Shown: positions 36,758 through 61,676 of the stretch, piece after piece
Layout of the letters: each line of letters begins with the position of its first letter
Numbering within the stretch: the stretch's first letter is position 1
Assembly (NCBI GenBank): GCA_000310025.1
Contig: FN649742.1
Coordinates: 3,234,343 to 3,298,342, forward strand
DNA length: 64,000 nt
Source: Ectocarpus siliculosus
Lineage: Eukaryota; Sar; Phaeophyceae; Ectocarpales; Ectocarpaceae
Direction of reading: 5' to 3'
Program-made: the position numbers and the translations under genes
The notes under the pieces: model-generated
What the model was told of the DNA's origin: nothing
What the model saw: the letters and a program-made list of their open reading frames with translations, nothing else
The model's database searches: none

Positions 36758-39700
36758 CTATTCTAAGGCACGATGTGCCGCCACAGACTCCACGTAGGTT
36801 GCAAACGACCTCGACAGCGTTCCGTTCAGCACGGCCGGGGCGTGCCGTAGTCCCCTGATGAAACCTTCGACGCCATACGCCACCTCTTCCAGCTCGACAA
36901 CGCGGCGCTGGTCCGTGGCCTCTTTCGCGTCGCCAATTCTTCCATGCAACAACCCCGTTAGCCTTAACAAACGCGCCAAAACATCTGTAGACACGTCCGG
37001 CGAAGTCCTGTCTACCCTCGCCACGGCTCGTGGCGCAGTCACGCTCAAGGAGTACCAAAGAGCGCAGCCGTGGGCTGTGCCCCATGCGCCACACCCCAAC
37101 AAAGCGTCCGACCTTTCACCCACAATGAGGAGTCCTGTGTTCGAAGGTTCCCAAATGTCCGTCGCGCCGCCCGCAAGCGCTGCGGCGCGCACCACGCAGC
37201 TCTCAGGGAGTTCAGCCGTGTCGAGCAGAGTCACCAACCACTTGCCCGCCGCGGCAGTGGCATTGATGCGTTTGAGCGCTTCCGCCAGACGTGGCAGGAC
37301 AGCTGCGCTAGCCTTCCTATCGGTGCGTATTCGGGTCGCCCACCGGGCCACAGAGCCGAGCGCCTTAGCGGTTACGATGGTGGCTGCGACCGACGGACGG
37401 GAGGATCGTGAAAACATTCCACCCGTTGAAAAAACGGTGCTGGCTTCACCCGGCGGTGTCAACCGGGTAGTGAGGTACTCCCGGAGGCATTCTTCGCAAA
37501 GTTGGACGGAGGCTGTTTTCGTATTGGTAGCGCCAGGTTTCGAGGCGATAGCGTCCTGTACCTGCTCCCAGGGAAGGTGAGAGAGCAAGCCAACCAACGC
37601 GTCCCAAAAGGGAGCCTCCTCGACGTCCAGATCGAAGCGCGACAGGTCATCTCTGGTGCAAAACGCATGTAGGACAGAAGGCCAAAACCTTGTCAGCGTC
37701 ATGCTCTCGACCTCGCCACGAGTCCCCGCTGCTACAAGAGTACTCATCCCAGACAAGAAAGCCGCTGCTTGACTGCTTCCTTCCTTGCCATCTACCACGA
37801 CGCCTTCCCGCTCCGGACCCGAAGCCCTCGACCAGGAGGTAAAAAAGCGGGGGGTGATGGTATCCCAGAGCTTCTTGGCTAGGTCCTTCCCTATCTCCGA
37901 TGGCAGCTTTAAAAAAATCTGATCGAAAACCGCGACGAGATGATGCTGCACGTCGCGCGGGAGATTCACAAAGAACGGCCTGTCGAACAGGCCGCGGAGC
38001 CAGGTCGAGTAAGCCTGTTCCTTGTCCGCAAGCGCAAGGCCTAACGATATGCACTTCACCTGGACCTCCACCCCGTGGCCGCCCCTGAACAGCGCCTCGA
38101 TCACTATAGCCATTTGTGGATGCGGTATTCGGAGAGTGGGGCAAAACGTTAGGCTTGCCATCGCTGATGCCGCGAAGAGTGAAGATTGAACCGGAACAAC
38201 TGCCTTGTAGTTTTCCGCCTTCGTGTCGCCATCCTCGATGTCTTCCAAACCTGTTGCGATGGACTGAAGCCCGGTCAACACCACGTTCATCAGTGTACCA
38301 TCCTGAGCCACGCGCAAAGCGCCCGGTCTGATCGAGGCGGTGGCGGGGCCACTGATACCATGTGTCCCGCCGTCCTCCGTCCACCCAAGCGACGCTTGCA
38401 AGCTCGAGTTTCCCACGGATCGCTCGTCCTGGCCGAGCGCAGATAAACACCCCCACACCCGCGCTGCGGCGTTCTTCAGGCGGATCGATGTGCCCTGCAT
38501 TGCCTCAAGCACGTCTTGCAAGAGGGTGTCCACCATTCTTCGATTCGTGATGGAGGTGACACGCAGTCGCCTTGGGACGAGCTCGCCAGGGGCCATCAAC
38601 GGGCAGCCAATCAAAGATGCAAGCGCCAACAAGGATGCCACGCGGACGCCGCTATTCGCGCCTCTCCGATGCGCCGCGGCCTTCCGCAAGCTTTCGAACA
38701 GTGACTCAGCGAAGCCAGGCGGGAGAACCACCTTACCCTCGCAGACAACAATGAGACCGGCCGCCCCGAGGGACGTGTCTTGTGCCGGTAGTTTTTCACT
38801 CCCAGATGGATTGGCGAGGCCGTCAAGACTGACACTTACCGACCGCAAGCACGTGAGAATTACCGGAGCATCAACAAGACCGCATGATATGCACTCCGAC
38901 GCAGCAGCAGCAAGGCAAAGCGTAGCCCCGCACAACCCCGCCAAAGGCTTCAAAGCGAGGGCCTGTACAATGCTGAACACCTGTTTCCGAGGGGCCGGAA
39001 GGAGTGGGGTGGGCGCAGGACGTGGTAAAGGCAGGATGACACGTTTAGACGCATGGGCACCCCTCAGGAAGGGCAAAGGGTGTTGTCATCCAAGGTTAGT
39101 TTCGGGGTGGGGTAGACCAAGAGGCAAGCATGCGAGAAAACATAAAACTTCATGGACCTTTCACAGCATAATCTCAATACTATCTTCTTTGATGTTGACT
39201 TTTCGCAGCAAAACAAACAAATAGAGTCATCCTTTCTCACCTGAAGAAGCTCCGAATGCAGGCCCGTAGCACGGAGCCCGGGTAAGGAGGAAGAAAGACC
39301 TAAGAACAGCGCCAAACAGATTGACCCCCGCGTTGTGGTGGGCAATCCTATCTCCGAGTCTTCCCAGTGAATGGCTTGCCCAATATCTACGCTCTCCCAA
39401 TCCACGACCGCAGCCCGATCTTCGCGGGCCGCTACGCTCCCGTTTCCCCCGAACCACGTCTCGACAATGGCGTGTATATGGTCCGATCTAACCGCATTCG
39501 CCAAGCCCGCGAGCAAGCACCGCACGGCACGCAAGACCGCAATCCGGGCCCCTGGAGCTGTAGGATGCCGAAGTCCCCACTCAGATGCCACGCCGACGGC
39601 CACACAGGACCAAAATGACTGAGCCTCGTTCGGAGTCATGGCCTCCCCAACTGCCGCCGCCGAATCTCGACTCGTTGTCCAACCTTCCACTGCCGTGCTG

Positions 39701-42700
39701 TGAAAGCGTTCAATCTCCTCGAGAGTACTTTCCACGAGTGTGGTAGAAGCTTCGGGAAGAGCCCGTACTGCCATTGCCGCGCAGAGAGGGAACATTTCCT
39801 CGCCATCCAATAGAGTCTGGGCACCTCCCGTACATCTGCGCAAGCGATCCACAGCGCGGCCAGTCTCTACCACGGCAACATGGTAGAATGAAGCCGGGAC
39901 GCAGCTGGCCAGGCTCGCAGAAGCAACGGCGACCAGCCCTCCTTGAACTCCGCGAATATTACCGATTGCTTGACGGCAAGCTTCCACGGCCGCCGCCGTA
40001 ACATCTGTGCCACCACGGGCCTCTCCTCGCCCGGCCGCTTCAGTGGACTCTGCCGCGACACAAGCAGCAAATAGCCGTGCCACGTATCGCTGGATGCCAC
40101 TGAGAGTACCAGCTCGCTGCCATGGGCAAAGCGCCAGCCCGCCTCCGGTTCCTTCTACCGCCATCAACTCGCCGAAATCACGAATCATGATGTCTCGGTG
40201 CGCTACAACTGCCGTCGCCTGGGGTGTAGGGTAGCTCCACAACACCGCGCCGGCTAGACCGGGACAAGACGAGTCATCCTGACGAAATCCCTGAAGAACA
40301 CTCTCCGGTTCAGGCAGAGCTGCCACGAGGCGGTTCGAGGGACCCGGCCTCACGCTCCTCTTTTGTCCACCGTCACGGCTGGCCCCGTCCCGCTTAGCCG
40401 ATACCCATGTAGACGGCTCGACACTCTCTTCGGCCACCACGATTTGCACCACTTTCCGAAGATTCGACTGAACCATAAAGCTTCCGTCGGTTGACATGGC
40501 TTGTGCAAGGAACACCCGGACGTGTCGGGCTGCAACGATGGCTTCTTCCTCCGCGTTCTTGCCACTCACAGCTCGCAGGAGTGCAGGGAGGTGAAACCCG
40601 AGAGCCTCATAAACGGCTGAACGGACGCCGTCGTCGGGATGACACCCAAGGCCCCCCGCCAAGAGAATTTCTACAGCCTTCCCCATACCCCACCCCAAGT
40701 CACTGTCCTCGCCCGACCCGTCTGAGCCCGCTTCTGCAGCTTCGGCCGCCGCCATTGCAACCGCCTCCGCGCCGGCACCGCAAAGTTGCGCCATACTTTC
40801 CATGACCCGCGGGTCTCCGAACGCATCGCTGTCGTCACGTCCAGTATGGGCAACTTTGCCCTTTTTAGTCACGATCCGAAGGGCGGCGCCAAAATCGAGG
40901 CAGTCGCTCCGGCACAAGGCAGCGATCGCTTTGAGAGCCAACGCGGTTACCGCACTCGACCCGTCCCCCAGAAACCCCTGAAGCGGTCGAACGCATTCCA
41001 AGCCAAGCTCGGGGTCGGTCTCGCAGATTTCAAGCATACCGGCGGCACGGCAGAGGCGGGACTCATCTGGCTCCGGTGACAACGGCGGAGTGTGGTCGGC
41101 AGGGGTCTCGGAGAGGAGTGACTGCAGTTGGTTGAAAGTCCTGTCAAAGAGGCGGTGGTTATAACAGGAAAGGGCTTCATATGACGTCCTCTTGCGTTCA
41201 CCCGAGCAAGTTAGACGCGTGTTGGTCTTCCAAGAATTAAAACTTGCAAAATACTAAGATGCCTGTCCTCAACGACCAAGTGTTCTGCGATAAGCAAATC
41301 AACCCACCTCGGGTTGACTTGTACCAAAGCAGCCACCAGCCGCATGCCAAGCCCTCGAACCGCTTGCTGCGGCGCCTTCGCCAATGCTTGTATTACAGCA
41401 GCGACAGGTTTAGCCGATAGCTTGTGCGCACCCAGTTCCGGCAAGAGATGAAGAAGGCGCGCAACGCTCCCACCCTCGCTCGCAACTCCCCCAAGCTTCC
41501 GAATTCCATACAAAACGAAAGGCAAGAGGCGGACCCCCAGAGAGGGCACGGCCCGAACTACGGCCACAAGAACGGTACAAACCGCTTCATGGGTCTGCTC
41601 GTGCTGTTGGAGGAGGAGTGGCGCAAGAAGACACAAGCCACACTCCAGATCTGCTACAGCCGAGGCATCTCTTCCCGCGTCAGTGACACCACCGTTCGAA
41701 CCACTGAGATCATTCGCACGTTGCTTCAGCCCCATGCACGCAACGACCATCGCCTGCTGGTCTCCATCCAGCACACCCAGTCGCCGGATACCAAGCGCAA
41801 CCGGGCTTGAAAGCCGTAAATGTTCGTTTCCGGCAGAGCTACGATCGCCCTCTACTCTCGCGTCTGCCATTGTCTCGAATTTACTCCGAGAGTACACGCC
41901 ACCTAGCGCAGCTTCAAGCAGCGGCAGTACGTTCGCTGACACTGGATTTCCCGTAGCGGCCATGCTGACCAAAGGATAAACAAGCGTTTCCAGTGACCAC
42001 GCTCTTACGCGAACATCAACGTTGTCTGGAATTACTTTGGGGTCGTGAAAGACGCGCGGTGCCATGGCGCTTAACGTGCGACCAACGATGTCGAGTAAGG
42101 CCTCGCGCTCGTCGATGCAGTGGCTCTGCAGCGCGGTTATCCCCAAGAAAGCTACTTCATCCGCGAGGCAAAGGGGGTCTGCTGCCACCAAGAACTGCAT
42201 CGAACTCAGGACAGGCGTGATCGGCACCCCACGTCCTGAACAGATACGACAAATCCAGCGTTCGGCAGTGGAGGTTCAAAGCAAAAGGCTGAGAAATTGA
42301 TCTAGACTAAAGAGTGGTGACAACCATCAGGATAGTAAACCAGAGCGGACAGCTACCACCTCTACGTTCACAAAACCTAAACAAACGATACAGTTGCGGC
42401 CCGCGAATAAGAAACGTCATTTCGGGTCGAGGCTCAAAGTCTTATTTCTGGAGCATACACCAGCATACGTTCTCATTTTTCTAAAACTAAGTTTCTTATG
42501 TTTCTGCTTGTTGAATGCTCATGATTTTTCTCAAAATACCATTTTATATAAGATCACGCGAGACGGTCGCGTGCGCGCAGCCGGGGGCGCCGCAAGTTCA
42601 CGCTCAATACCTCGCACCCCTAAGTCAGCACAAAATACAGTTGGCTGGGGGCGGGTGTACGTAGCAGGGAGTGCGCGTGTGTTTTTCTTATGATGCACGA

Positions 42701-45700: not shown

Positions 45701-48645
45701 TTCCCGAGAAGATCACACTCTCTGCGTGGATAAAAGACAGAACAAAGTACGAGAAGCAGCTGGAACAGGCAGACCAGCTCGGGGCCACACGCAAGAAAAA
45801 AGCCCGGAGCGTGAAGTCGTTCATCACGGGGAGGGTTAGGTCAAACGCTGAGGCCGAGCTCGAACTTCTCGACTGGATCAACGATGTTCGTTCGGAAGCC
45901 ATCTCTGCCCGCGTCTCTACAAGGATGATCAAGAACAAGGCGGTATCGATCAACTCGCTTTGGTTCGGCCCGAGGCCTGCAGCGAACGACCTGGAGGGCA
46001 TTAGAAAGTACCGCAACAAGCAGACTCGCTGGTGCAGGAGGTTCCTTAGGAAGAACCGGTTGTCATTCCGGGCGGTTGCCAGGCAAGGCCAGAAACTCCC
46101 TTCCGGGTGGCCTGCGATTGCCATGAAAGCCGTCAAGGAATGGAGGGCACTTCGTCACGGAGGAATCGACGGTGGGGGAGGACGGAGCATGGCGGGGGCA
46201 ACGAGCAGTGCGCCTTCGAAGCCACGTCTGTTGTTCAAGGAGGAGCAGAGCTACAGCATGGATGAAACTGCTGTGTGGATGGAGCCCGCTGGCACGTCGA
46301 CCGTGGCGGTGAGTTCAATAGTGTTGCTTCGAGTCATGTGCCTGTCTGGTCGTTTCTTGGCATTCCGTGCAAACAGTGGGCATTGTGATGCAATATTTTT
46401 TGCCGTACCTACTCAGTGTCCAGCCAGTAAGGCTAGACGACGTTGGTATTGTGCTTATGCCGGGTCAGAAGTTTCTTACCATTCGCATCCATCATCGCTG
46501 TACTGCAAAACCCATACGTTACTTTGTGCGTGAAGAGCTGTCATTCTCATCTACAAAATCGACTTTTTTCGTCGCCTCTGCTTTCTCTATTGCTTTTTGC
46601 TTTTTTATTTTTGTCGTTCGCAGCACACCGGTCAGAAAGAAGTGGCCATCAAAACCGGTGGAAAGGAAAAGTTGCGGATCACTGCCGTGCTTGCAGCAAA
46701 CATGAAGGGCGGCAAACTCCCGCCGCTGCTCATCTTCAAGGGTAAGCCTACGGCGCCGGGCAAAACCCCCGCTGCCAACAGCATCGAACGAGAGTTCAAG
46801 GTGGGCAAGGACAAGAAGGGGATAGCATACCCTCAGAGCGTTGTGTACGCCGTGGACGACAAGGCGTGGCACACGCAGCGCGTCTTCAGGGATGTTTGGC
46901 TCCCCCAAGTGTGGAACCGGCGCCCGGGTCGCGAGGGGGTCCTGGGCAACTACCGTCAGCCGGACACGCTGCTATCATGGGATGATTACACCGTGCACAA
47001 GACAGCCCTGTGCAAGGAAGCGATGGACAAGTCCAACACGACGCTGTTTTTTGTCCCCGGAGGCCTAACGCCCAAGATCCAGCCTTGCGATGCACTTATG
47101 AACAAGCTGTTCAAGTCCAACATGTCCAGGCTCTACGATGACCACATGGCCTCCACCGACGCCGTGCGCAACGACCGCGGCTACCCGGATCCCCCATCGA
47201 GGGGATTGCTCGCGCAGTGGGTGAAGAAAGCGTGGGATGAAGTGGACCCTGAGAGCATCCGTTCGAGCTGGAGGAAGGCTGGCATGACCCTTGCCTTCGA
47301 CGGATCTGAGGACGAGGCGTGGGCCAACAAGGAGCTCAACTCCGACGCCCAAGGGAAACCACTTCGTGCAGACGGCGACGCGGCCGCTGCCGGCGTGGAG
47401 GAGGCTGGCCCATCGGAGGAGGGGGAGACGATGGCCGACTTGTTGGAGGTGTTGGAAATCGACGACGATGACAGCTCGGGAGATGGCGAAGGCAACGATG
47501 ACTCGGAGGTTGAGGTCATGGCAGACTTGCCGGGGGCGGACGTTGTTTGCATAGACTGAGGTGTCTTGTCTGGTATCTACCTACCGTAGTTGCATGCCAT
47601 GGTCAAGTCAACCAAAGCTGCTATTCGAGCCAATTTATCCTGGGTTTCATATGTTTCGGTAGTCGCTTGCCCTCTTGGTTTCTAGCTTTGGTTGATATGT
47701 AGCTGGCACTTGCTTGCGTCCTATGTGGTTCCAGCTTGAGTGGTGAACGCAAGTCTTGCAAGTGGTTGCGTCGTCCAGATACCTGTGTGCTGTCGTTTTG
47801 TCGCACACAACATTGGCACAACCGCTATGAGGTATCGGTTCTACGTCTTCGTTGTGTACCTATGCGAAGAATTTCCAAAGGATACTGCGAAAATGCACGT
47901 GGGAAAGCATGTACGTGATGGAGTGGTGTGAGCCATCCTAGCTATCACACCTGTTTTACACCCCTTGACGCCCTTTGTACGTGGGTGCCTCCTGTAAGCG
48001 CACCGCATCACTCGAGCGACATTATTGTCACACCCCCGTAGGTAGGGTCTTGTGGGCGCACTGCAACAACACGGGCGACATTATCACCCCCCCGTCAGGC
48101 CGGGTCCTGTGAGCGCGTATCATCACACGGGCGAAGTTATCACACCCCCTTGTTATCACACCCCCTGTAAGCCGGGTCCTGTGAGCGCGCTTCATCACAC
48201 GGGCGACGGTATCACACCCCCTTGTTATCACACCCCCTTTTGGTGAGACTCTGTGAGTACACCTCATCACACGGGTGACATAAGATATCACACCCCCTAC
48301 AGAATACCACACCCGTGTGATAACTTTCGTCCTCCCGAAAATATTATCACACGGGTGTGGTATCTTATGCAACCTACGGTATATGCTCTACTTCGAAGTT
48401 TACATAACAATTCCTCTTAGCCTGGCGGAAGTAATTAATTCACCGCACAATTTTTACACACCTTGACACCCTGAAGAAACCACCGCTAGACGAGAGCTGC
48501 CCAGGCAACCAAACAGAGCTTCGCGAGCATCCACCCCACTGCTATCTTCTGCCACAAGCTTCACCAATCGACTGATTGCATTCTGCGAAGTCTCTACTTG
48601 GTCCACCTCAGCGCGGGCCAGCAGCGCCGTGAGATCTTTCCTCAT
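36758..48645 (-). CDS. FOCAD: Focadhesin / RST1-like protein (DUF3730), 5 exons, about 2101 aa
   Basis: Exons (minus): 48645-48462, 43993-42968, 42235-41244, 41121-39241, 38980-36758; phases agree, 6306 nt. An alternative acceptor for exon 4 at 41140 does not fit the phase. The protein is all alpha-helical, of HEAT/ARM type. The stretch with [20 protein letters not shown] and [17 protein letters not shown] aligns by eye with the LPKLGVHK...TLRLLTSLWEKQ region of human focadhesin, followed by its cysteine-rich helical repeat ([19 protein letters not shown]). The N-terminus ([20 protein letters not shown]) also fits. In animals FOCAD, and in plants RST1, are linked to the SKI complex and cytoplasmic exosome; that role is family knowledge, not seen here. 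Intron 1 (48461-43994) contains a complete DNA transposon in antisense. Start chosen: the only ATG in the first exon's open frame. Confidence 0.75.
44014..44038 (+). repeat. Left terminal inverted repeat of the pogo-like element
   Basis: 25 bp, preceded by TA at 44012-44013. Differs from the complement of the right end only at one position (TATCACAC against TACCACAC). Confidence 0.9.
44257..44776 (+). CDS. Possible 5' exons of the transposon's protein
   Basis: Exon a: ATG at 44257, [20 protein letters not shown]..., ending ahead of GTAAGA at about 44332. Exon b: about 44414-44776, after CTCAG, Ala/Pro/Thr-rich with repeats of ATAENPAA and TPTPTP, then a more normal stretch [20 protein letters not shown]. 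The phase between a and b agrees. Joining b to the main transposase exon at 45366 needs a weak donor (GTGCGC at about 44777). Could be the N-terminus of the transposase or a separate short protein. Confidence 0.35.
45271..47559 (+). CDS. Pogo/CENP-B-like (DDE_1) transposase, 2 exons
   Basis: Exons 45271-46308 and 46624-47559; intron GTGAGT...TTCGCAG, phase 0; 657 aa counted from the open-frame start (the likely initiator is an ATG nearby, for example 45427). N-terminal half: a basic stretch ([11 protein letters not shown]), then [14 protein letters not shown] and [20 protein letters not shown], the psq/CENP-B type helix-turn-helix, then a second DNA-binding part ([18 protein letters not shown]). 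The catalytic domain has D331 (YSMDETAVW), the [25 protein letters not shown] core, D466 ([10 protein letters not shown]) and D502 ([10 protein letters not shown]), i.e. a DDD triad at pogo spacing. The C-terminus is acidic ([13 protein letters not shown]). It cuts and pastes the surrounding element by its terminal repeats. No stop or frameshift seen. Confidence 0.9.
48017..48345 (+). repeat. Right subterminal repeat array of the pogo-like element
   Basis: Four to five imperfect ~65-bp units of the form GCCGGGTCCTGTGAGCGCG...TCATCACACGGGCGAC...TTATCACACCCCC. Shorter related units stand at the left end (44040-44210). The ACACGGGTGTGATAA motif also forms a small palindrome next to the right terminal repeat. 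Probably transposase binding sites. Confidence 0.75.
48355..48379 (-). repeat. Right terminal inverted repeat of the pogo-like element
   Basis: 25 bp ending CCTACGG, followed by TA at 48380-48381. Confidence 0.9.
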
Positions 48646-49018: not shown

Positions 49019-52000
49019 ATGGAAGAAGGGGTCAAAGTGTGGGCGAAGGGCGGGCCCCAGCTGTGGCGCAAGGGGGTGGTGAGCAAGCGCGTGCCCGACA
49101 GAACGGGCGGCAGCAGCATCGCACGGATCACGGTCGTGCTGGAGGAGGGGGGAACGGCGGAGTTCGCCGTGGCGGCGGACGAAGAGGAGGAGTGCACGGA
49201 CGTCAAGCTTCGGAACGTGACCGGACAGGCCTCCACGCTGGAGGGGGCGGGAGTGGAAGATCTCACCTCCCTCACCTACCTGCACGAGCCCACCATCCTC
49301 TACTCGCTGAGCCAGCGCTACGAGTCGGACCTGATCTACACCGGCGTCGGCCCAATCCTCCTCGCGGTGAACCCCTTCAAGAGGGTCAAGCTGTACTCGG
49401 ACGACATTTTGGCGGCCTACCGCAAGGACGGCGAGCTGCGGCACTACGACCCGAACTACGATGAGACGCTGGCCCCTCATGTGTACGCTATCGCTGACAA
49501 GGCGTACCGCAACATGACCGCCCCTTCCAACGAGTACGAGCACCGGTCTCAGGTACGGCTTTGTGTGCGTGTGTGTGGGTGCGTAAGCCTTGGTGCTGTC
49601 TACGGACGGGTAGTGCACTTTCACGTCTTCGAAGATGTCACGCCCGGCGGGCAAAGCACGCGCGCCGCAACGACCGGCGTCATAGTCTACTGCTCGGTGA
49701 TCTGATTAGTTTTCTTCTCGTATATCGCACTCCCATGATAACGGTTTGCGACGGCTCTTCTCTTCACTATCCTCGCCGTTTTGTATGCAGGGCACCTAGT
49801 TAGCACAGCACGTCGCTGGCTTCATGGTCACACTGCTGCTAGCAAATATTGTAACAGGATGACGTTTGGTAGGTAATGCCCTTGCTGTGTATTTTTGGCG
49901 CGGGCGTATACATAGGATATGAGATACGCACCCGGAAAACTCAAGCAATGTTGAATCCCCCGCTCGCATTGTAACTGCGGAGGGTGTGGATCAAAAAAGG
50001 GGCCGTTGAGGTGGATGGGAATCAAGACAGTGTTGATAACGACACAAGGTTTGCCCTCTGGCAGTGGCGGCTCGAGTGTTGGGCATTGGAAAAAAGCGTC
50101 ACACTTGCACGGAGGTGACCTCCGGTTACTAAAATATATAAGCAGTGTTGATTTTCTTCTGTTTTTCTAGAAAATATTCCGATCTCTCTTGAGTACCCTT
50201 TTGACCTCCGTACTGGCCCCAACTGACGCGGACCGAAGACGCGGACACCTTCCGTGTGGGTGTGTATGCATACTACGAAGAGAGCAAAGAGACACGGAGG
50301 ACCCAAGGCAAATCATCACACAAGCGCGATAAGAACTAAGTGTACCCCAGCAGAGCTTTTTCTACGTTGCATGCATACATGCAGGTGTACGTGGGAAAAC
50401 CACCGAAAGAGTCAAAATGACAAAACGACACACCGACCAACCCAAACCTCAGGTCGGCATGTAGGAGACATGATACTGCCGCTAAATCGGCAGCAGTAGT
50501 TCTTAGATACCAACCCACGCGGCCTTTGGTTGTGCGCACCCAGCAGTCTCCCGTACTCGTTGGTAGCAGCGTTGCAGCAAGGCAAGAGCCAGTCCAACGG
50601 GAGCCCGCTCCCTTACCTGTTGTTTCCTCTTTTGTTTGCGCAGCATGATACATGATCGTGGTCAAGACTGCTGCTGTGTTTGCGTACCGATTGTCGTGTG
50701 TCGTGTTTCGCTTTTGGATTATACTTCGAAGTATGTGTTGAATCATTCAGCATACCGCGGTGTGCATTCAAGGGGAAAAGGGGTCGCGTTTGCTCCTGCG
50801 GCCTCTTGGTGGGTCAGGTCTTCGGGAATTCTAGGTTTCTACCCGAACAACAGAATCTCACCCTCCGTCTCCTGAAATTGGCAACTCAAGATTCCAAACA
50901 ATATTCTATGTGCACGTGAAACCGCATATACACACGTACCGAAAACGTTCGGAGCAGTACTGCTGTAAGTCGGTTAGAGTATGGCACTTGCCCCTCAGGA
51001 GACAGCGTCGGACGAAGACGTCAGCCAGAGACACGACAGCCTTTTTTCTTATATACATCTACGGTTAACAACAGACGTTTATCTCGATCATGCTGTGTCA
51101 GCACCCTATTTTATTGATGTCAACCCAACATCGGACTGGTCGCGCCTCTCCTGCATCTCTCTTGCTTGGTGACTAACAACAATCGCCCCCGTTCCGCCGA
51201 ATGAATCACTTTGTGTTGCCTTTGAACGGAAAAAGTCCATCCTGGTGAGTGGCGAATCCGGGGCGGGAAAGACGGAGACATGCAAGATCATCATGAAGTA
51301 TCTGGCCATTCTCGGCAGCAAGACGGGGTCGACCGAGCTGGGCACGATCGAGCAGCAGGTGCTTGAGTCCAACCCCATCCTCGAGGCGTTCGGTAACGCC
51401 AGGACTGTCCGCAACGACAACTCCAGCCGTTTCGGAAAGTACATCCAGGTGAGAGGACCTTGTAGGCAAGCCGGTGGGACTAATAGGCGTTTGTCGATGC
51501 TGTGTGTGGCCCGTGGTTTCTCGTTGGTGAGGGGATGTGTCGCTTGGCTGTGCTGGAGATCGTTGATGTGGACGGCCATGCGTTAGCAGCCTCTCACGCG
51601 GCTTTCGACGTCGACATTAACACGGTCGGTCGGGTGGACTTGCAACTCTTGTGTTGTGGTAAAAGTGTTTGCATGCGTGTTTGCGGAAGCACCAATCCAC
51701 CACAAACGATGTGTATCTACACGATAAATAAAACACGGTCGAATAACGCCACCCGTTGAAACGACGTACGCCCTCCGGCAACACAACGCCGCGATACGCA
51801 GATCATCTTCGACAGCTACGGCAAGCTAACCGGGGCGCAGATCAAGACCTTCCTCCTCGAGAAGGTGCGGGTGGTGAAGCACTCGGCGATGGAGCGCAAC
51901 TACCACATCTTCTACATGCTGGCGGCGGGGGCTTCCCCAGAGCAGCGCGAGGGCTGGGCGATGGGCGACCTCAGGAGCCACCAGTTCACGTCGCAGTCGG

Positions 52001-55000
52001 GCTGCTACGACCGCCGCGACGGGGTGCTGGACTCGGAGCTTTACCAGGAGCTGATGGAGGCGTTCAAGGTCATGGGTTTCGAGGAGGAAGAGAAGGCGAG
52101 TCGTCCGTCCGGCGGGGGGGAGGGGTACTGATGTTTTTCATCCCGCAGCGGTTGGACCATTGACCACGCGTCCTCGAGAGGACGGAGCGTTGTTCCCACA
52201 GGACCGATCACAGATGGCCAATCGTTCCTTCCTACTTGGGGGACGGGGCGGGGGCGTACTCATGTTTTGCATGCCTCAAGTATTGGACCATTGACCACGC
52301 TGGAGGAATAAGGGGAGGAACAACACGGTTGGTGTGGGGCGGGAACGCAGCGGTGTCGGAGAATGGTTTTTCGGAGGCCAGTAAGACTGCTGCTTGGCAA
52401 AGTTGTATTCGAGACTGTCGTCTTCTACAATCGCTCCATTCGCAGAAAATGATTCGGGTTCATCGATTGCGTCAAGAGCTATGTACGCGTGCACTTGAAA
52501 CTCTTCCGTTGCCGTGGGTATGGACTGGCTTTGCTTTTGGCCAGCCGCCGGTTTGTTTTCTGAGTACAATTCCTATGAATCCATGCGAACGCGTGACCTT
52601 TGCAGTCCCGCCGACAACCCCAATAAAAATAAAACTCCACTACAACATAGCCAACACGACAGATTTTTTTGTTCAATGACGGCGTGTGAACCCCCAAACA
52701 GGCCAGCGTATTCCGCATGGTGGCCGCCGTGCTCGCCCTCGGGGACGTGGACTTCGTCGATCGGCCGGACGCCGGGGACGGCGAAGCGCTGACGGCTCTG
52801 TCGGAGCCGAGCCGTCCGCGCCTCGAGGCGGCCGCCCGCCTGCTGGACGTTAGCCCCGACCGGATACTGAACGCTCTGACCAGCCGCAAGATCAACGCGG
52901 GCATCAGTAACCAGGTGCTGTATGTGTGCGAGTAGGGGGGGGGTACTCATAGCCGTGCATGCCGTAGTCGTTAGACCATTGACCTCTGGGGGTGGTTTCT
53001 GCTCGTGCTCCCATTCCGCACAACGTAGAGGCAGCAAATGGGAGTGGTGGGTGTAAGGCCGGCGGCGCCATGTTTTTTTCAGCGCGGTCGGTGGTCGTTG
53101 TTGACTTGTTGCATTGCTATAGCTTTAGTGGGCACAGCGATAAGCGTCTGCTTTGGTTTGATTTGCGTAGGAGTGATTGTTTTGTTTCCTGGTGGGGTTC
53201 TGATGTCCACTACTAGTAGACACGAAGAGGTACTTCGACCACCAACGATGCGCTGACGTCTTGGCGCCTTCTCTCCCTCCCTCCCTCCCTCCCTCCGTCC
53301 CTCTCCCTCTCCCTCTCCCTCTCGCTGTCTCTCTTTCCGCCCGGACACGTCCGTGTACGGCACGGCGTGCTTCAACTGGTGGTTGCGCTATGCGGGGGTT
53401 CCGTGGAATGATGGGTGGTCGGGTGTGACGGGACGGACGATGGGCGGAAAACCCGCACAACAGGTGACGATCTTCCTGACGATGGAGCAGTCGAGGCACG
53501 CGAGGGACGCCCTGGCGAAGGCGGTGTACGCGGCCATGTTCGAGTGGGTGGTGGGGAGAACGAACGAGTGCATCGAGGCCAAGCAGGCGGAGGTGATGAC
53601 GGAGGACCGCATCTTCATTGGGCTGCTCGACATCTTCGGTGAGTGACGATAGTTTTGTCAAGACAAAGAGGATGTGTACAAGTAGCAAAGGAAGAAAAAT
53701 AGCAAAACCCCGCGCGATGTGCTTTGTCTACTCCCACAACCCCAAGTTACTCGCCGATTTATCACCTCCTGATTGCCGGTGTTTCGATTGTGGGAGGTGA
53801 TCGTGGTGATTGATGTGGTTTTATGTGTTGTTGTCTTGCCATTGAAAACAAGCGTGACCTCCACGAGGCACTTTGGGGACAGTCAGAGTGCCCCTCAGGT
53901 TGAGAGACACGACTTCTGTGGTCGAAGACAGCAACACCAAGCACGGTGCGCAGGTGGTGTGAATGTTTCATCGATTTGGTGATGCGAAGATAGATGGTTC
54001 GGTGTTGCCGTGTCTTGAGAAAAGCTCGTGATACTCGTGATGATGGGCCTGGACGCGGTATTTTTGGTTCGAGACGCTGTCGATGGGGGTTGTTTTCAGA
54101 CTTGCTGCGCGCGGCCAATGTGTGATGTCTTCCTCTTTTTTTTCTCTCAAGTATGGTACAGGATGGATTTCTCCCGCTGCCCTTAACAATGGAACGCTTG
54201 TGCCATGCCGATGCCCCGCGTTGTCCTACCACTCGTGGACCCTCTTTTCGAGTATAACCGCCTGCCGGCCCTCGCTCTGCCGCTGTTTCCCTCCCCTCGC
54301 CACCCGCGGTTGCAGGTTTCGAGATCTTCACGAACAACTACTTCGAGCAGTTCTTGATCAACTACGCGAACGAGGTGCTGCAGCAACAATTCAATAACTT
54401 CGTCTTCCGCCAGGAGCAGGTGCGGTGGTCTATACAGTGCCCTACGAATGTCTCTTGGTGCTCTCGTGCAACAAAAACTTAATGAACAGCAGTTCTTGGA
54501 TCGTTGAAATTGTTATTGGTATCGATCTGGTGTTTCGGCACGTTGGTAGACATGAAAGGGTGTCAAAGGGGACTGGCTGCTGTCGCCTATCCCCCCAAGA
54601 AAGCGTGTTTGAATGAAGCAGATCTAAAACTTGTTCTCTCAAACTGAAATACGGTTCGCAGGAGGAATACGAACGGGAGAAGATCCAGTGGACCTTCATC
54701 GAGTTCCCGGACAACAAGGACTGCATCGATCTCATCGACAGGAAGCCGAACGGAATCATCCCCACCCTGGACGAACAGGTGCGTTGGTCGCGGTTCATCG
54801 GGCCACGGCTAGCCCGGTGTTTTTGACGGCCGCTGTTCGTCTCGCCTCGTCTCGTCTTGTGTGAACTGCTGTCTTATTGCCTTGTGGGGAGCTTCTTTCT
54901 TCGGAAGCGTCTGCCCTGCTGTAGTTTGGTCTCCCCGCAAAACTCTCTTTGTCACCCGGATTCGTTTGTGGAAAGAAAAGAAACCCCATTGTAGGTCACC

Positions 55001-58000
55001 ACGCCCCCTCCGCCATTTTTGTGTCCGTGCAGTGCCTCCTGGGCAGGTCGACCGACGACCGCTTCGCCCGCGAGATGTACAAGAAGTGCGAGGGTCACGA
55101 CCGCTTCGAGCTGGCGCCCAAGATGCGGGTAGACCACCAGTTCTGCGTTCGTCACTACGCGGGCAAGGTGGTGTACAGCACCGAGGGAATCATCGACAAG
55201 AACCGCGACACCTTGCAGCAGGAGGGGGTTGACATGCTGCTGTCGTCTGGGTCGGAGTTCACGGTCCTCATGGGCGAGATCGAGGCCAAGTCTACCAAGG
55301 TTTGTAGACTAAGACTAGAGCCTTTCCCGTGCGGTGTACTGCTGCTGTGTTGGGACGGCCATAGGATGATCGATAACGGGGTGGTTAGGTGGGTGCCACA
55401 GCAGTGGACCTTGCAGCCACGCCATGTAAAGTTTTCGGAGGCTGGTGGGTGTACCACTGTTGAAGCGCCCAGCTTGGTGGAGTTACACGTCCTTCACGTT
55501 ACCTCCCCCGCGATTTATCATATGAACCGACACTTTCGTCTTGTTGGGTGGGAGCTTCTGTTCGGCGTGCGGTCGACCCTCAACTCTTACCCCTGCTAAT
55601 TTTGGCTTCACAAACCTCCGCCCCGCTTCTGTACAACTCAAGGGCAAGCCTCGCAGGTCGGAAAGCGGCGGCGTCCCCGGGACGGCAGGGGCCTCAAGCG
55701 CCGGCGGTGGAGGGGGTGGAGGCAGCGGCGGCGGCCGGCGTGTCGGCAGGCGCACGACCATCGGCGCCAAGTCTCTCGGCGCACAGTTCCGGGAAAACCT
55801 GAACAACCTCGTGGCCACAGTGGACAAGACGCACCCCCACTACGTGCGGACGATCAAGCCGAACGACGACCTGCAGCCCGGCAACTTCACCTACGACCGC
55901 ATCGCGGAGCAGCTGCGCAACGCGGGCGTGCTGGAGGTGGTGAGGGTGGCCCGCGCCGGGTTCCCCGTCCGCCTGGGCATCCAGGAGTTTATCGACCGCT
56001 ACGGGGTGCTCGCCCCGCTGGTGGTCGAGACGGCCTACAGGAATTGCGCTCAGGTGAGGTTGCTGCGGCGCGAGGCCTTGATTATTGGTGTTTGCGGTGG
56101 TGGTGGTGGTGGTGGTGGTGGTGGTGGTGTTTAGTGCTTGTGATTTCAGCTACATAGACCTCGACGCGCTTTCCGTGAGGTGACATAATCGCACCCCCTG
56201 GGCCGAACTTCAAGGCTAGCTTTCTCCATGGACAGCAGAGGGAGTGGTGGAGCGGAAAATGGTGGCGTTGGTAGCGTACGGTCTTGGAACAGAGACGTTC
56301 GAAGACATTTTTTTTTTTATGTCGGGATGCTCTTCATCGTGCAAGTAGTCGAGAGTTAATGGTCGGTCCACGGGGTGTGTTATCTTACGTTATGTCCCCT
56401 ACGGTACGCCGAAGGTGAGATTGTGGCGCTCTCGTGAGCGCCGCCGGTGAGGTTTGGTGTGACTCCAGCTTATTTCCCTTTTTCGTTTTGTTTTGTTTTG
56501 TTTTGGCAGGACGGCGGAGAGATCGATCAGGAGTCGGAGCGTGCGGTGTGCAAAGCCCTGGTGGTGTCGATCGTGGCCAAGGTGACGAAGGGGAGGGCGA
56601 ACGCGTCAACGGAGGAGCAATTCATGGCGCTGTGCCGCGACGTGGGGATGCAGATGGGGCTCACGAAGGTCTTCTTCCAGCAGAAGGCGTTCAACAGCAT
56701 AGAGAGGCTCAGGTAGGAGGTATTGTTGTCGTGTGGGTGAATTAATTCGTTCTGAGGTATCAGCTCGTTTGCGCTTATCTGATGCTTTTCTAACGTTTCC
56801 AATCAGTTATCGTGGTCAGTGGGTTTGATATCCCATTGGTTAGTTAGTTGGTTGATACAAGCTGGTTCACGGAAATGAAATCAAATCTGTTCAACCACAG
56901 CTGCCAGACGAATTTGTACACAAAATTGACATATGTGACATCATAGTGACCCCCATGAGCAAGGGAGCAAATCGTCATGGCCGGAATTTCGATCGGATCC
57001 ATGGCCACAAAGCTAAGGGGTTGATTGTGCCTCAGCCGAGCAAGAAGACTCCAACACGATATATAGTAAATATGAGAGCGTTGTGCAACAAAGTGCCGCC
57101 CAAACCGTTCAAGAAAAATTGAGTGAATTTTTGGACTCTTGACCGGTCAATTAGGGTCTGGGACCCCCGAAAGCCGGTGCCATATACGTAAAGTTACTTT
57201 TCATGATTTTTTCCACGTCAGAATAGTGCAATGGAGCCTACCAGTAAGTTTCGTGGGAAAACTTGTGAAGCTGACGCAACAGGGCACTTTGTAATGTAAT
57301 AGGGGCCGGATATGATTGTTTATATTAAAATGAAAAAGTGGGGGGGAGTCATCTTTCATTGCACAGAAGCTGAAAACTTCACGCCGCGTTTTTTAGTTAG
57401 ACTCTGACTCCGTTGTCGCCAGATATCCGGGGTCCCAGGAGGGACGGATGACGCCGAAACCTTCCCGGAACCTCTAGGACCCCGTATAACAGACGAAGAC
57501 AAGAAGACCCCCTCGACGCAGAGTTTCGCATGTACCCAAGTTGCACGTGTGCAAAATTTCAGAGTCTGCAACTCAACAAAACGGCGTGAAAAATTCACGT
57601 TGAACAAGTTTGTTTTGTCATTCCGTAAACCAGCGTGTATAGTCGAGATGAACATCCACCCGATTGGTACCAAACCGTAAAAAATATCCCAAAATGGCGT
57701 TGATGCACAACCGTTGTGTAGGTCTCGCCGGTTGTGATATTGTTTCCCCTGGTACACTAGGTGGAGCTTGATCACGTAGATCGTTCTGTTCCGTACATAG
57801 TGTGACCTTAATCCCCCCCTCTCTCTCGGTCTCCTGCTCTCTAGATCTCTCACTCTATGTGCCTCTCCCTCTCGTGCGTATTTGGTTTCGTTTTTCTCGT
57901 GCCCTGCAGGACGGCCATGATCTCAAACTCCATCACCAAGATCCAGACGACTCTCCGCTGCTGGCTGGCCCGCAAGAAGTTCCTCCGGGACAGGAAGGCG

Positions 58001-60339
58001 GCCGTGTCGGTGCAGGCGTGGGTCAGGGGGGAGCAGGTCCGCGCGACGGTGGGGCGAGAGATGCAGGAGCTGGTGCGGAAGCGCAAGGAGAAGGAGGCGC
58101 AGGAGGCGGAGGCGGCCAGGCTGGTGGCCCAGGAGAAGCAGAAGCACCTCGAGGAGCAGGCGCTATCCGTCAGGCTCGCGGAGGTGACTTGGGGAGGGTG
58201 CCTCGAGTTAATGCTGCTGTCCTTGACCTTGAAAAATCGTTCCGGTCTCTACTCAGTAGTACTATGCACGTCCGTACTGGTCCAACTGACTCGGGTACCT
58301 TCCGTGGTCACAGGTCAACAACCCGAAAAAGGGTGCACCTCTTGTAGAAATCAAGAGGAAGTAAATGCGGACTCACAAAAATCGGCAAACAAACGCTATG
58401 AGTGGGTGTAGTTTTATGGGCGTTTTCCCTTTGTTGAGCACCCGTTTTGCAGGCTTCCCTTGTTTTTTTTTTGTTCGTTCGACGGAACCATCGTGATGAG
58501 ACGGAGCCCTCGGGGTCATGTTTGCCCATTAGGATGAGAGTCATTCCTCGACAGCTCCGGCCATGTTTGGGACGAAAGAATCCCCCGGCCCTCCTTTCAG
58601 GAATGTCGGAGAAATGCTCTTTGACATCCGTGGAAGCCTGCTGAGGGTACTGTGGGCCATAACACCCCCCAAGTTCTGATCCGCGGTTGCTCCTACACAC
58701 AAAGTTGGACGTGGACTAGCTTCCGTTCTGGGGCGTGCTTTCTCATATTGTTGTTTGGACATAGACCGTGGGGGATGATTCTTCCACGAAGTAAAACATC
58801 GTTGGTAATATTAATATAAGTAAATAAATAACATATGGTTGGAGCGACCGCCATAGCGGAGGCCCAAGTTTTTCCCCGAGCCTTCTGTGCCACCTACGCG
58901 ATCGTAGCAAGGTGCCGCGCGAGTTCGTACGCTTGTTCGATGCGCTGACCAGGTGGGAGAAGTTTCGGTGCTATTTGTTCAAGAGCTGCGAAGCTAGACT
59001 TGCAAGTGCGCCTGGGTACGGCGTTGTTCCGTTTTTTGGACGAACAAGTTGTCCTCGCTTGCGGAGTGCTACATGCTTCCGCAGCAGTTGGTGCATGCCT
59101 CCTGCGGGTTTCGTTGCAAGCCGCGGTTCGTATGAGAAGCACCAGCGATGACAGTGATCTTTACCAGACGGTCTCACAGGCAAACAATAATGGGAAGGGA
59201 CGGGAAAATACATGCTTAGGTGGGAAAAGTGTTCGATTGCCTGCCTTCAACACCGATGCCATCGCTGATTCTAACCACCCTCCCCCCATCCGCACCCACG
59301 CCCTTGCTTGGTGTTCCTTCACACTCTTCTCTCGGCCATGCCGCGCGTCCAGCTGAGGGTCCAGATGCAGGACGAGATCGACTCCGTCAAGGCCGAGCTG
59401 AAGAAGGCCAAGTCAACCGTCAAGGCCTTGCAGGGGCTGAACGGACGCAAGGTTGCCGTGACCGGCGCCCTTCGCGGGTGCGGGCCGGCCATCGTGAAGC
59501 GCTTGCTCCAGGAGGGCGCGGCCGTCATCGCCGCCGACAGAGGCATGTCCAACGAGCAGGCAACGGCGGCCGGCCTCCGGCCGGCAGATGACGGGGACGG
59601 GGCGAGCGCGGCCGCTACTACCCCCGAGGCTGATGCCCTGGCGGAAGGCCGCCTGGTGTTCTTCGACATGGGAGGGCCGGGAGACGAGGACGGGGCGTGC
59701 CGGCTGTCCTCGCTGTGCGTGGAGTCGTTTGGAGGGATGGACGGTCTCGTGTGCAACACGTCGGCGCCGGCGATGCTGGTCGGGGACGAGGCGGGGGGAG
59801 CGCTCCCGAACGGCGGAAGCTTCGGCGCCGGCTCCGCCGGCGGCGACGGGATCGTGAACCCGCTCGAAGACCTGGAGCCGTCCGACTGGGCCGACGCGTT
59901 GACCGGAGCCCTGACAGAACCCATGCTGGCGGTGAAGCACGCGCTGCCGCTGCTGCAGGCGGCGTGCGCCAAGGGCAAGGTTTCTGCCGGGGGCATCGTT
60001 AACGTGGTGTGCACGAGCTTGCCCGCGTCCGGGCCGGGGCTGGCGGCGGTGTCTGGGGCGGGGGCGATCTCGAACCGCGAGACTCTGACGGCCGCGGCCG
60101 GGGGCCTCGCCGGGCTGACGCACGCCCTGGCCTTGAGCTCCGGCCCTCACGTGCGCGTGAACGCGGTCAGCGTGCCGGAGGGCAGCGGCAGGCCGGCCGC
60201 CGGAATGACGGCGACGGCGCGCGGCGGGCGCGTGGGCAAGGACGCGGCGTCGGCCGTGACGTTCTTGCTGTCGAACCGCGCCGGCTCGGTGACAGGGCAA
60301 AATCTTGTGGTGGATGACGGTGCGGCAAGAAGGAAGTAG
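49019..60339 (+). CDS. Myosin heavy chain with C-terminal SDR-like domain, 12 exons, 1263 aa
   Basis: Exons: 49019-49552, 51236-51448, 51802-52095, 52702-52914, 53464-53638, 54316-54419, 54662-54778, 55033-55299, 55643-56053, 56510-56712, 57910-58183, 59353-60339; total 3792 nt, all phases agree. Intron 3 (52096-52701) is GC-AG (AAG/GCGAGT). The motor (residues about 1-845) has an N-terminal SH3-like start, P-loop GESGAGKT (184-191), switch I NDNSSRFG (238-245), switch II DIFGFE (474-479), a Gly-rich loop 2 (656-675), actin-binding [12 protein letters not shown] and SH helix [18 protein letters not shown]. Two IQ-like motifs (855-866, 878-888) are followed by a coiled coil (about 893-962) that continues across the exon 11/12 junction. 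Residues 966-1263 form a Rossmann SDR domain: TGALRGCG (972-979), then [15 protein letters not shown] and [11 protein letters not shown]. The catalytic YxxxK is not present. Motor should be active on actin; the SDR part looks like a non-catalytic nucleotide- or protein-binding module. Confidence 0.88.
52118..52195 (-). repeat. Short repeat-R-related element, myosin intron 3
   Basis: G-run, GGTACTGATG, then TTGGACCATTGACCACGCGT and GAGAGGACGGAGC: the reverse complement of the element at 24558-24650. A second lies at 52240-52320 in the same intron. Confidence 0.65.
52240..52320 (-). repeat. Second short repeat-R-related element, myosin intron 3
   Basis: GCGGGGGCGTACTCATGTTT, TGCATGCC, TATTGGACCATTGACCACGC. 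The same orientation and order as the copy at 52118-52195. Confidence 0.65.
52930..52995 (-). repeat. Short repeat-R-related element, myosin intron 4
   Basis: G-run, GGTACTCATAGCCGTGCATG, CCGTAGTCGTTAGACCATTG. Closest to the 3' end of the full R copies. Confidence 0.65.
53266..53330. repeat. (CCCT)n / (CTCCCT)n tract
   Basis: Pyrimidine simple repeat in myosin intron 4, ahead of exon 5 but too far (about 130 bp) to be its polypyrimidine tract. Confidence 0.8.
56094..56130. repeat. (GGT)n microsatellite
   Basis: Perfect GGT units 40 bp after the exon 9 donor, in myosin intron 9. Confidence 0.9.
56173..56404. repeat. Possible MITE related to the pogo-like element
   Basis: The right end, read as complement, is CCGTAGGGGACATAACGTAA...GATAACACACCCC; the left end is CCGTGAGGTGACATAATCGCACCCC. 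Both resemble the CCGTAGGTTGCATAAGAT...CACAC terminus of the transposon at 44014. 232 bp, no open frame, in myosin intron 9. The right flank is TA, the left flank is not, so it is degraded or only partly related. Confidence 0.45.
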
Positions 60340-60774: not shown

Positions 60775-61676
60775 NNNNNNNNNNNNNNNNNNNNNNNNNN
60801 NNNNNNNNNNNNNNNNNNNNNNNNNNNNNNNNNNNNNNNNNNNNNNNNNNNNNNNNNNNNNNNNNNNNNNNNNNNNNNNNNNNNNNNNNNNNNNNNNNNN
60901 NNNNNNNNNNNNNNNNNNNNNNNNNNNNNNNNNNNNNNNNNNNNNNNNNNNNNNNNNNNNNNNNNNNNNNNNNNNNNNNNNNNNNNNNNNNNNNNNNNNN
61001 NNNNNNNNNNNNNNNNNNNNNNNNNNNNNNNNNNNNNNNNNNNNNNNNNNNNNNNNNNNNNNNNNNNNNNNNNNNNNNNNNNNNNNNNNNNNNNNNNNNN
61101 NNNNNNNNNNNNNNNNNNNNNNNNNNNNNNNNNNNNNNNNNNNNNNNNNNNNNNNNNNNNNNNNNNNNNNNNNNNNNNNNNNNNNNNNNNNNNNNNNNNN
61201 NNNNNNNNNNNNNNNNNNNNNNNNNNNNNNNNNNNNNNNNNNNNNNNNNNNNNNNNNNNNNNNNNNNNNNNNNNNNNNNNNNNNNNNNNNNNNNNNNNNN
61301 NNNNNNNNNNNNNNNNNNNNNNNNNNNNNNNNNNNNNNNNNNNNNNNNNNNNNNNNNNNNNNNNNNNNNNNNNNNNNNNNNNNNNNNNNNNNNNNNNNNN
61401 NNNNNNNNNNNNNNNNNNNNNNNNNNNNNNNNNNNNNNNNNNNNNNNNNNNNNNNNNNNNNNNNNNNNNNNNNNNNNNNNNNNNNNNNNNNNNNNNNNNN
61501 NNNNNNNNNNNNNNNNNNNNNNNNNNNNNNNNNNNNNNNNNNNNNNNNNNNNNNNNNNNNNNNNNNNNNNNNNNNNNNNNNNNNNNNNNNNNNNNNNNNN
61601 NNNNNNNNNNNNNNNNNNNNNNNNNNNNNNNNNNNNNNNNNNNNNNNNNNNNNNNNNNNNNNNNNNNNNNNNNNNN
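60775..61676. other. Assembly gap (902 N)
   Basis: Unresolved bases. Open frames running through it are artefacts. Confidence 1.

Follow-up and report, generated by a model that had tools for sequence, protein, structure and literature searches.

Does the myosin gene found in a window of the Ectocarpus siliculosus genome encode a heavy chain that ends in a short-chain dehydrogenase/reductase (SDR) domain, or does a separate SDR gene lie next to it? The window is a stretch of 64,000 nucleotides (G000:C17:3234343-3298342) from a genome assembly of 189 Mb in 492 contigs. An earlier note on this DNA had proposed a single protein, in which exon 11 (57910-58183) with IQ motifs is joined in phase 0 to exon 12 (59353-60339) with SDR motifs. 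The two exons, the phase of their junction and both sets of motifs were all found as described; the question is whether they belong to one gene.

The reconstructed myosin gene consists of 12 exons on the plus strand (49019-60339) and encodes 1263 residues, from a methionine at 49019 to a stop codon ending at 60339. Exon boundaries, here and in the paralogue described below, were placed by hand using homology and phase; the reading frame is unbroken in both models, all acceptors are AG, and all donors are GT except for one GC. Exon 1 (49019-49552) carries the start methionine (MEEGVKVW), the N-terminal region and the beginning of the motor. The motor continues through exon 2 (51236-51448), which contains the P-loop and NDNSSRFGK, exon 3 (51802-52095), which ends in an apparent GC donor (AAG/GCGAGT at 52095), exon 4 (52702-52914), exon 5 (53464-53638), where DIFGFE begins, exon 6 (54316-54419), exon 7 (54662-54778), exon 8 (55033-55299) and exon 9 (55643-56053), and exon 10 (56510-56712) holds the end of the motor and the converter. 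Exon 11 then supplies the IQ motifs together with a charged helix. Exon 9 opens with a glycine-rich basic insert (55643-55780), which presumably sits near the actin-binding loop 2 and is shorter in the paralogue. The stretches that we take to be the P-loop, switch I and switch II are intact in both models. Among the Pfam matches of the whole assembled protein are Myosin_head (4.5e-216, residues 79-770), IQ (1e-6, two stretches, the best at residues 850-868 in exon 11), which gives the protein an IQ lever, adh_short_C2 (4.7e-10) and adh_short (1.3e-8); exon 12 by itself matches adh_short_C2 at 4.5e-13.

The surroundings of the gene include an upstream open reading frame on the plus strand (46534-47556) whose product matches the DDE_1 transposase domain (Pfam, 2.2e-19) and a tandem repeat with a period of 72 (48081-48279), which lies about 740 bases ahead of the myosin start codon. 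A further open reading frame on the minus strand (39067-41253) matches the Focadhesin/RST1 family DUF3730 (Pfam, 9.4e-11). A run of 902 N (60775-61676) begins 435 bases past the myosin stop codon and makes the sequence beyond the 3' end of the gene unreadable.

The joint between lever and tail is the weakest part of the gene model. When the introns of both genes were compared by leaving one out at a time, the donor (58183) and the acceptor (59353) of the putative intron 11 (58184-59352) each came 26th of 28, and in-frame alternatives exist for the donor (58036, 58072) and the acceptor (59371); the exact 58183/59353 junction is therefore provisional. Splice-site strength was set aside as proof of fusion, as these ranks count against the exact junction. 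The earlier note had also argued for one protein from a coiled coil running across the junction. Heptad regularity is indeed detected in a stretch of 28 residues (shuffle p ~0.012, uncorrected, for the best of 12 stretches of the window protein), but exon 11 contributes just its final four residues to this stretch, and the same shuffle test finds no such regularity in stretches of this protein farther upstream. In the paralogue, the best of nine stretches reaches p ~0.046. Coiled-coil continuity is too weak alone as proof of one protein, and the paralogue was used instead.

These observations would also fit a pair of neighbouring genes, of which the myosin stops near 58411 and an independent SDR gene begins with an ATG at 59338. 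That ATG is in frame with the SDR, read-through from exon 11 reaches a stop codon at 58411, both splice signals of intron 11 are weak, and the window SDR is contained in a single exon. With its weak sites, in-frame ATG and marginal heptads, the window alone would be compatible with either arrangement.

With exon 12 as the query, a search of this genome identified one other place (C29:956315-956482, minus strand, E 0.001), and this led to the paralogue: a myosin motor is encoded upstream of it, likewise on the minus strand. The gene reconstructed there comprises 18 exons (C29:967575-953818, minus strand) encoding 1196 residues. Its protein begins with MEEGAKVWASGG, compared with MEEGVKVW in the window, and lines up colinearly with that of the window all the way from MEEG to the C-terminus of the SDR, with an identical domain order. 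It matches Myosin_head (3e-205) and adh_short_C2 (3.9e-25, positions 3-232 of 236), the latter encoded by four exons in phase; a single Pfam IQ stretch in exon 13 (0.025) scores 14.8 bits, below the cut-off of 20.3. Identity between the paralogues is 65.2% in the motor (439/673), 32.1% in the lever (25/78), 45.2% in the helix that follows (14/31) and 35.9% in the SDR (84/234). The N-terminal region, where class XXX myosins have an SH3-like domain, is conserved between the two proteins (33 of 74 residues identical, 44.6%); at E<=1, Pfam assigns no N-terminal domain to it.

The two genes differ in how the lever-to-SDR path is divided into exons. Exon 14 of the C29 gene runs from a stretch that looks IQ-like by eye into EELRIKMQGEINELR, which corresponds to the opening residues of window exon 12, and so spans the place of window intron 11. 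This exon thus holds both the IQ-like stretch and LRIKMQGEINELR, the homologue of the start of window exon 12. Conversely, the first part of window exon 12 (59353-59436), a helix homologous to C29 exons 14 and 15, spans the place of C29 intron 14 and continues into the SDR. At both places, an intron of one gene corresponds to exon sequence of the other, so the connection of lever and SDR stands without reliance on any single splice prediction. A 13-residue match between the two helices scores 35; the best other 13-mer, the self-match aside, scores 23 (n=111,641 13-mers, from six-frame translations restricted to the window and the 17.9-kb C29 stretch).

The comparison bears directly on the possibility of two adjacent genes. 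The helix is split the other way in C29, where its first half shares an exon with the IQ-like stretch. In the C29 SDR frame there is no methionine between the preceding stop codon and the glycine-rich motif, so that a separate ATG-started gene is impossible there. In the window, the read-through residues upstream of 59353 are unlike the C29 protein (8-mer score -7). The final residues of exon 11 do match it (+8), though this score is weak alone, being reached by 2.8% of the 8-mers of the protein. With this evidence on the other side, we consider two separate genes in the window unlikely, and a secondary split restricted to the window gene is possible. The single protein proposed in the earlier note is upheld by the colinear paralogue with its differing exon structure. 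The decisive evidence is that the domain order is the same and only one of the 11 window introns, at the 3' boundary of exon 6, is placed as in C29, and at the level of sequence the fusion is thus supported.

The scarcity of common intron positions (one, between genes with 11 and 17 introns) is in itself a striking case of intron turnover, given motors that are 65% identical. Retroposition was considered as its cause and set aside, since independent intron gain accounts for the pattern equally well.

The remainder of exon 12 (59437-60339) encodes the SDR domain up to the stop codon. In both proteins adh_short_C2 scores above its gathering threshold, which assigns both tails to the SDR family. 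Among the NCBIfam families, none of the 25 listed, of 65 for the window protein and 165 for the C29 protein, reaches its cut-off, and neither protein has a PX or PH domain among its Pfam matches or an NmrA-type Pfam model at E<=1. The window SDR was compared with nine bacterial SDR rows (L020-L026, L029 and L030, of which L021 and L022 are nearly identical and L025 was taken from an internal start), a part of the 18 bacterial loci with a tblastn relative; L019 and L032, which came out in a wrong frame, were left out. Residues T37, G38, G42 and G44 of the window SDR match all nine rows. The cofactor motif reads TGALRGCG in the window, fitting TGxxxGxG, and CGGAKGVG in C29, where the first threonine is replaced by cysteine. 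The window SDR also has an aspartate at position 62, after the second strand, a feature that in classical SDRs points to the use of an NAD-type cofactor. The catalytic columns tell a different story: N-S-Y-K in all nine bacterial rows, they read A-A-L-A in the window, the serine column being ambiguous owing to an insert. The C29 SDR lacks the catalytic tyrosine and lysine in the MAFFT, phmmer and HMM alignments, and the replacements differ between the paralogues.

The fold itself appears to be retained. The AlphaFold2 model of exon 12 (pLDDT 73.4, pTM 0.77), built from a 10-row alignment that includes bacterial SDRs and so favours an SDR model, begins with a helix (residues 2-26), after which seven strands and further helices alternate; pLDDT falls below 50 at exon-12 residues 82-88, 140-167, 224-240, 278-283 and 285-289. 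A Foldseek search with this model returned 1988 rows, 1601 of them at E<=0.001, led by BacC with NADH (E 7.3e-17); the best 50 of the 1988 rows bear dehydrogenase or reductase titles, except for one named just 'Rv2002 gene product'. The AlphaFold and Foldseek analyses apply to the window tail alone. Of the full SDR domain seen in the earlier note, the fold therefore stands, and the enzyme does not, as its catalytic residues are gone.

Some proteins with an SDR fold carry out other chemistry. Accordingly, the tail could still be catalytic, as an oxidoreductase or as some other enzyme, with an active site that has been rewired, and be carried along actin by the motor. The retained fold and dinucleotide motif speak for such an enzyme, as does nepetalactol cyclase, the second PDB match of the C29 tail; the loss of N, Y and K in the window and of Y and K in C29, with replacements that differ, makes it improbable. 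A functionless relic, a fused domain in the course of decay, is less probable still. It would explain why the Pfam score of the window SDR is far below that of the C29 SDR and why the domain carries inserts, but 328 codons have stayed open in the window and four exons have stayed in phase in C29, though the motors have diverged by about 35%, and the predicted fold of the window tail is intact. These alternatives and that of two adjacent genes are not mutually exclusive, and the likelihoods that we attach to them need not add up to certainty.

The relatives of the two genes were sought within the same genome. A tree was built of 21 motor rows, all from this genome: the two models and 19 of the 20 loci fetched (L055 was dropped for low coverage, and the myosin loci on C62 and C70 were left out). 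In it, the window and C29 motors are sisters with a UFBoot value of 84, and a locus on C368 joins them next with 91; the 19 locus rows cover just 155-486 of the 842 columns. This third close myosin (L040, G000:C368:338500-348400) matches the window motor at 65.8% identity across 196 residues, and its 3' half falls within an N run (338500-344111 of the fetched stretch) that makes its tail unreadable. No third SDR-tailed myosin was found among the 5, 18, 11 and 11 candidates scored in insensitive searches: the window exon was missing from the matches of the C29 tail at E<=1, and neither the window tail nor the C29 tail came up in the SDR family search, in which 18 of 67 candidates were scored. 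Other matches of the tail searches include a place on C44, found at E 0.0016 with 31% identity and also picked up by the SDR family search, and places on C2 (E 0.5) and C464 (E 0.75). In viral contigs, 196 pattern matches yielded no relatives by tblastn.

Among described myosins, the nearest layout is that of the class XXX proteins of stramenopiles, which in the survey passages concerned carry a C-terminal PX domain in Phytophthora and a PH domain in Ectocarpus (Odronitz and Kollmar 2007, PMC2375034; Sebe-Pedros 2014, PMC3942036), in place of the SDR that ends the window and C29 proteins. Myosins linked to enzyme-type domains are described in passages of PMC3942036, with chitin synthase in class XVII, a kinase in class III and RhoGAP in class IX; the present proteins likewise join a motor to an enzyme-type domain, but the domain is another one and its catalytic residues are lost. 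The word 'dehydrogenase' is absent from the main texts of three myosin surveys (PMC5583752, PMC3942036, PMC2375034), and the legends and text passages of the 35-class survey (PMC2375034) that name the tail domains of the classes and of stramenopile orphans name no SDR. The absence of an SDR tail from the surveys applies to their main texts, as distinct from figures and supplements; figure 6F of PMC3942036, whose 13 heterokont-specific domains are unnamed in the text passages, could list it. A literature search judged from titles, abstract openings and term counts gave no match for a myosin-SDR protein among the papers listed, and one for papers pairing the Pfam names of the myosin motor and the SDR, run without a positive control, found none. 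The SDR tail would thus appear to be unmentioned in the surveyed main texts, enzyme-fused myosins as such being already known.

Compared with classical SDR enzymes (FabG, BacC, PtmO8), the window tail is alike in fold and in the TGxxxGxG, VRVNAV and VTGQxLxVDDG motifs, but lacks the catalytic tetrad, is fused to a motor and carries long inserts. In redox sensors of the NmrA/HSCARG type, the SDR fold serves dinucleotide sensing rather than catalysis. The likeness of the myosin tails to these sensors lies in the proposed way of working only, as neither tail has an NmrA-type Pfam match.

Taking the domain order and the residue losses together, we favour as the probable explanation a myosin subfamily, of which two members are seen, built from a motor, an IQ lever, a short helix and a C-terminal pseudoenzyme of the classical SDR type. 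Classical SDRs are usually dimers or tetramers, and because of this the helix and the SDR fold may bring heavy chains together. The SDR would then act as a docking module for cargo or a partner and not as a catalyst, and bound NAD(H), by way of the retained dinucleotide motif, could make the docking interaction more stable or act as its switch. The fusion would be older than the duplication that yielded the two genes. It can be speculated further that these proteins are redox-gated actin motors, in which a dead SDR tail that arose before the duplication binds NAD(H) and ties dimerisation or cargo capture to the redox state, a proposal that we regard as tentative and rather doubtful.

The comparison suggests that the architecture of a tail can be established without RNA data if paralogues differ in their intron positions. 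The tail of a myosin determines its cargo and the way in which the motor is switched. The SDR-tailed subfamily, if real, would thus add a new tail type, in which the SDR fold is retained in two diverged paralogues though the active site is lost, and it would allow a direct test of the control of an actin motor by a metabolic cofactor.
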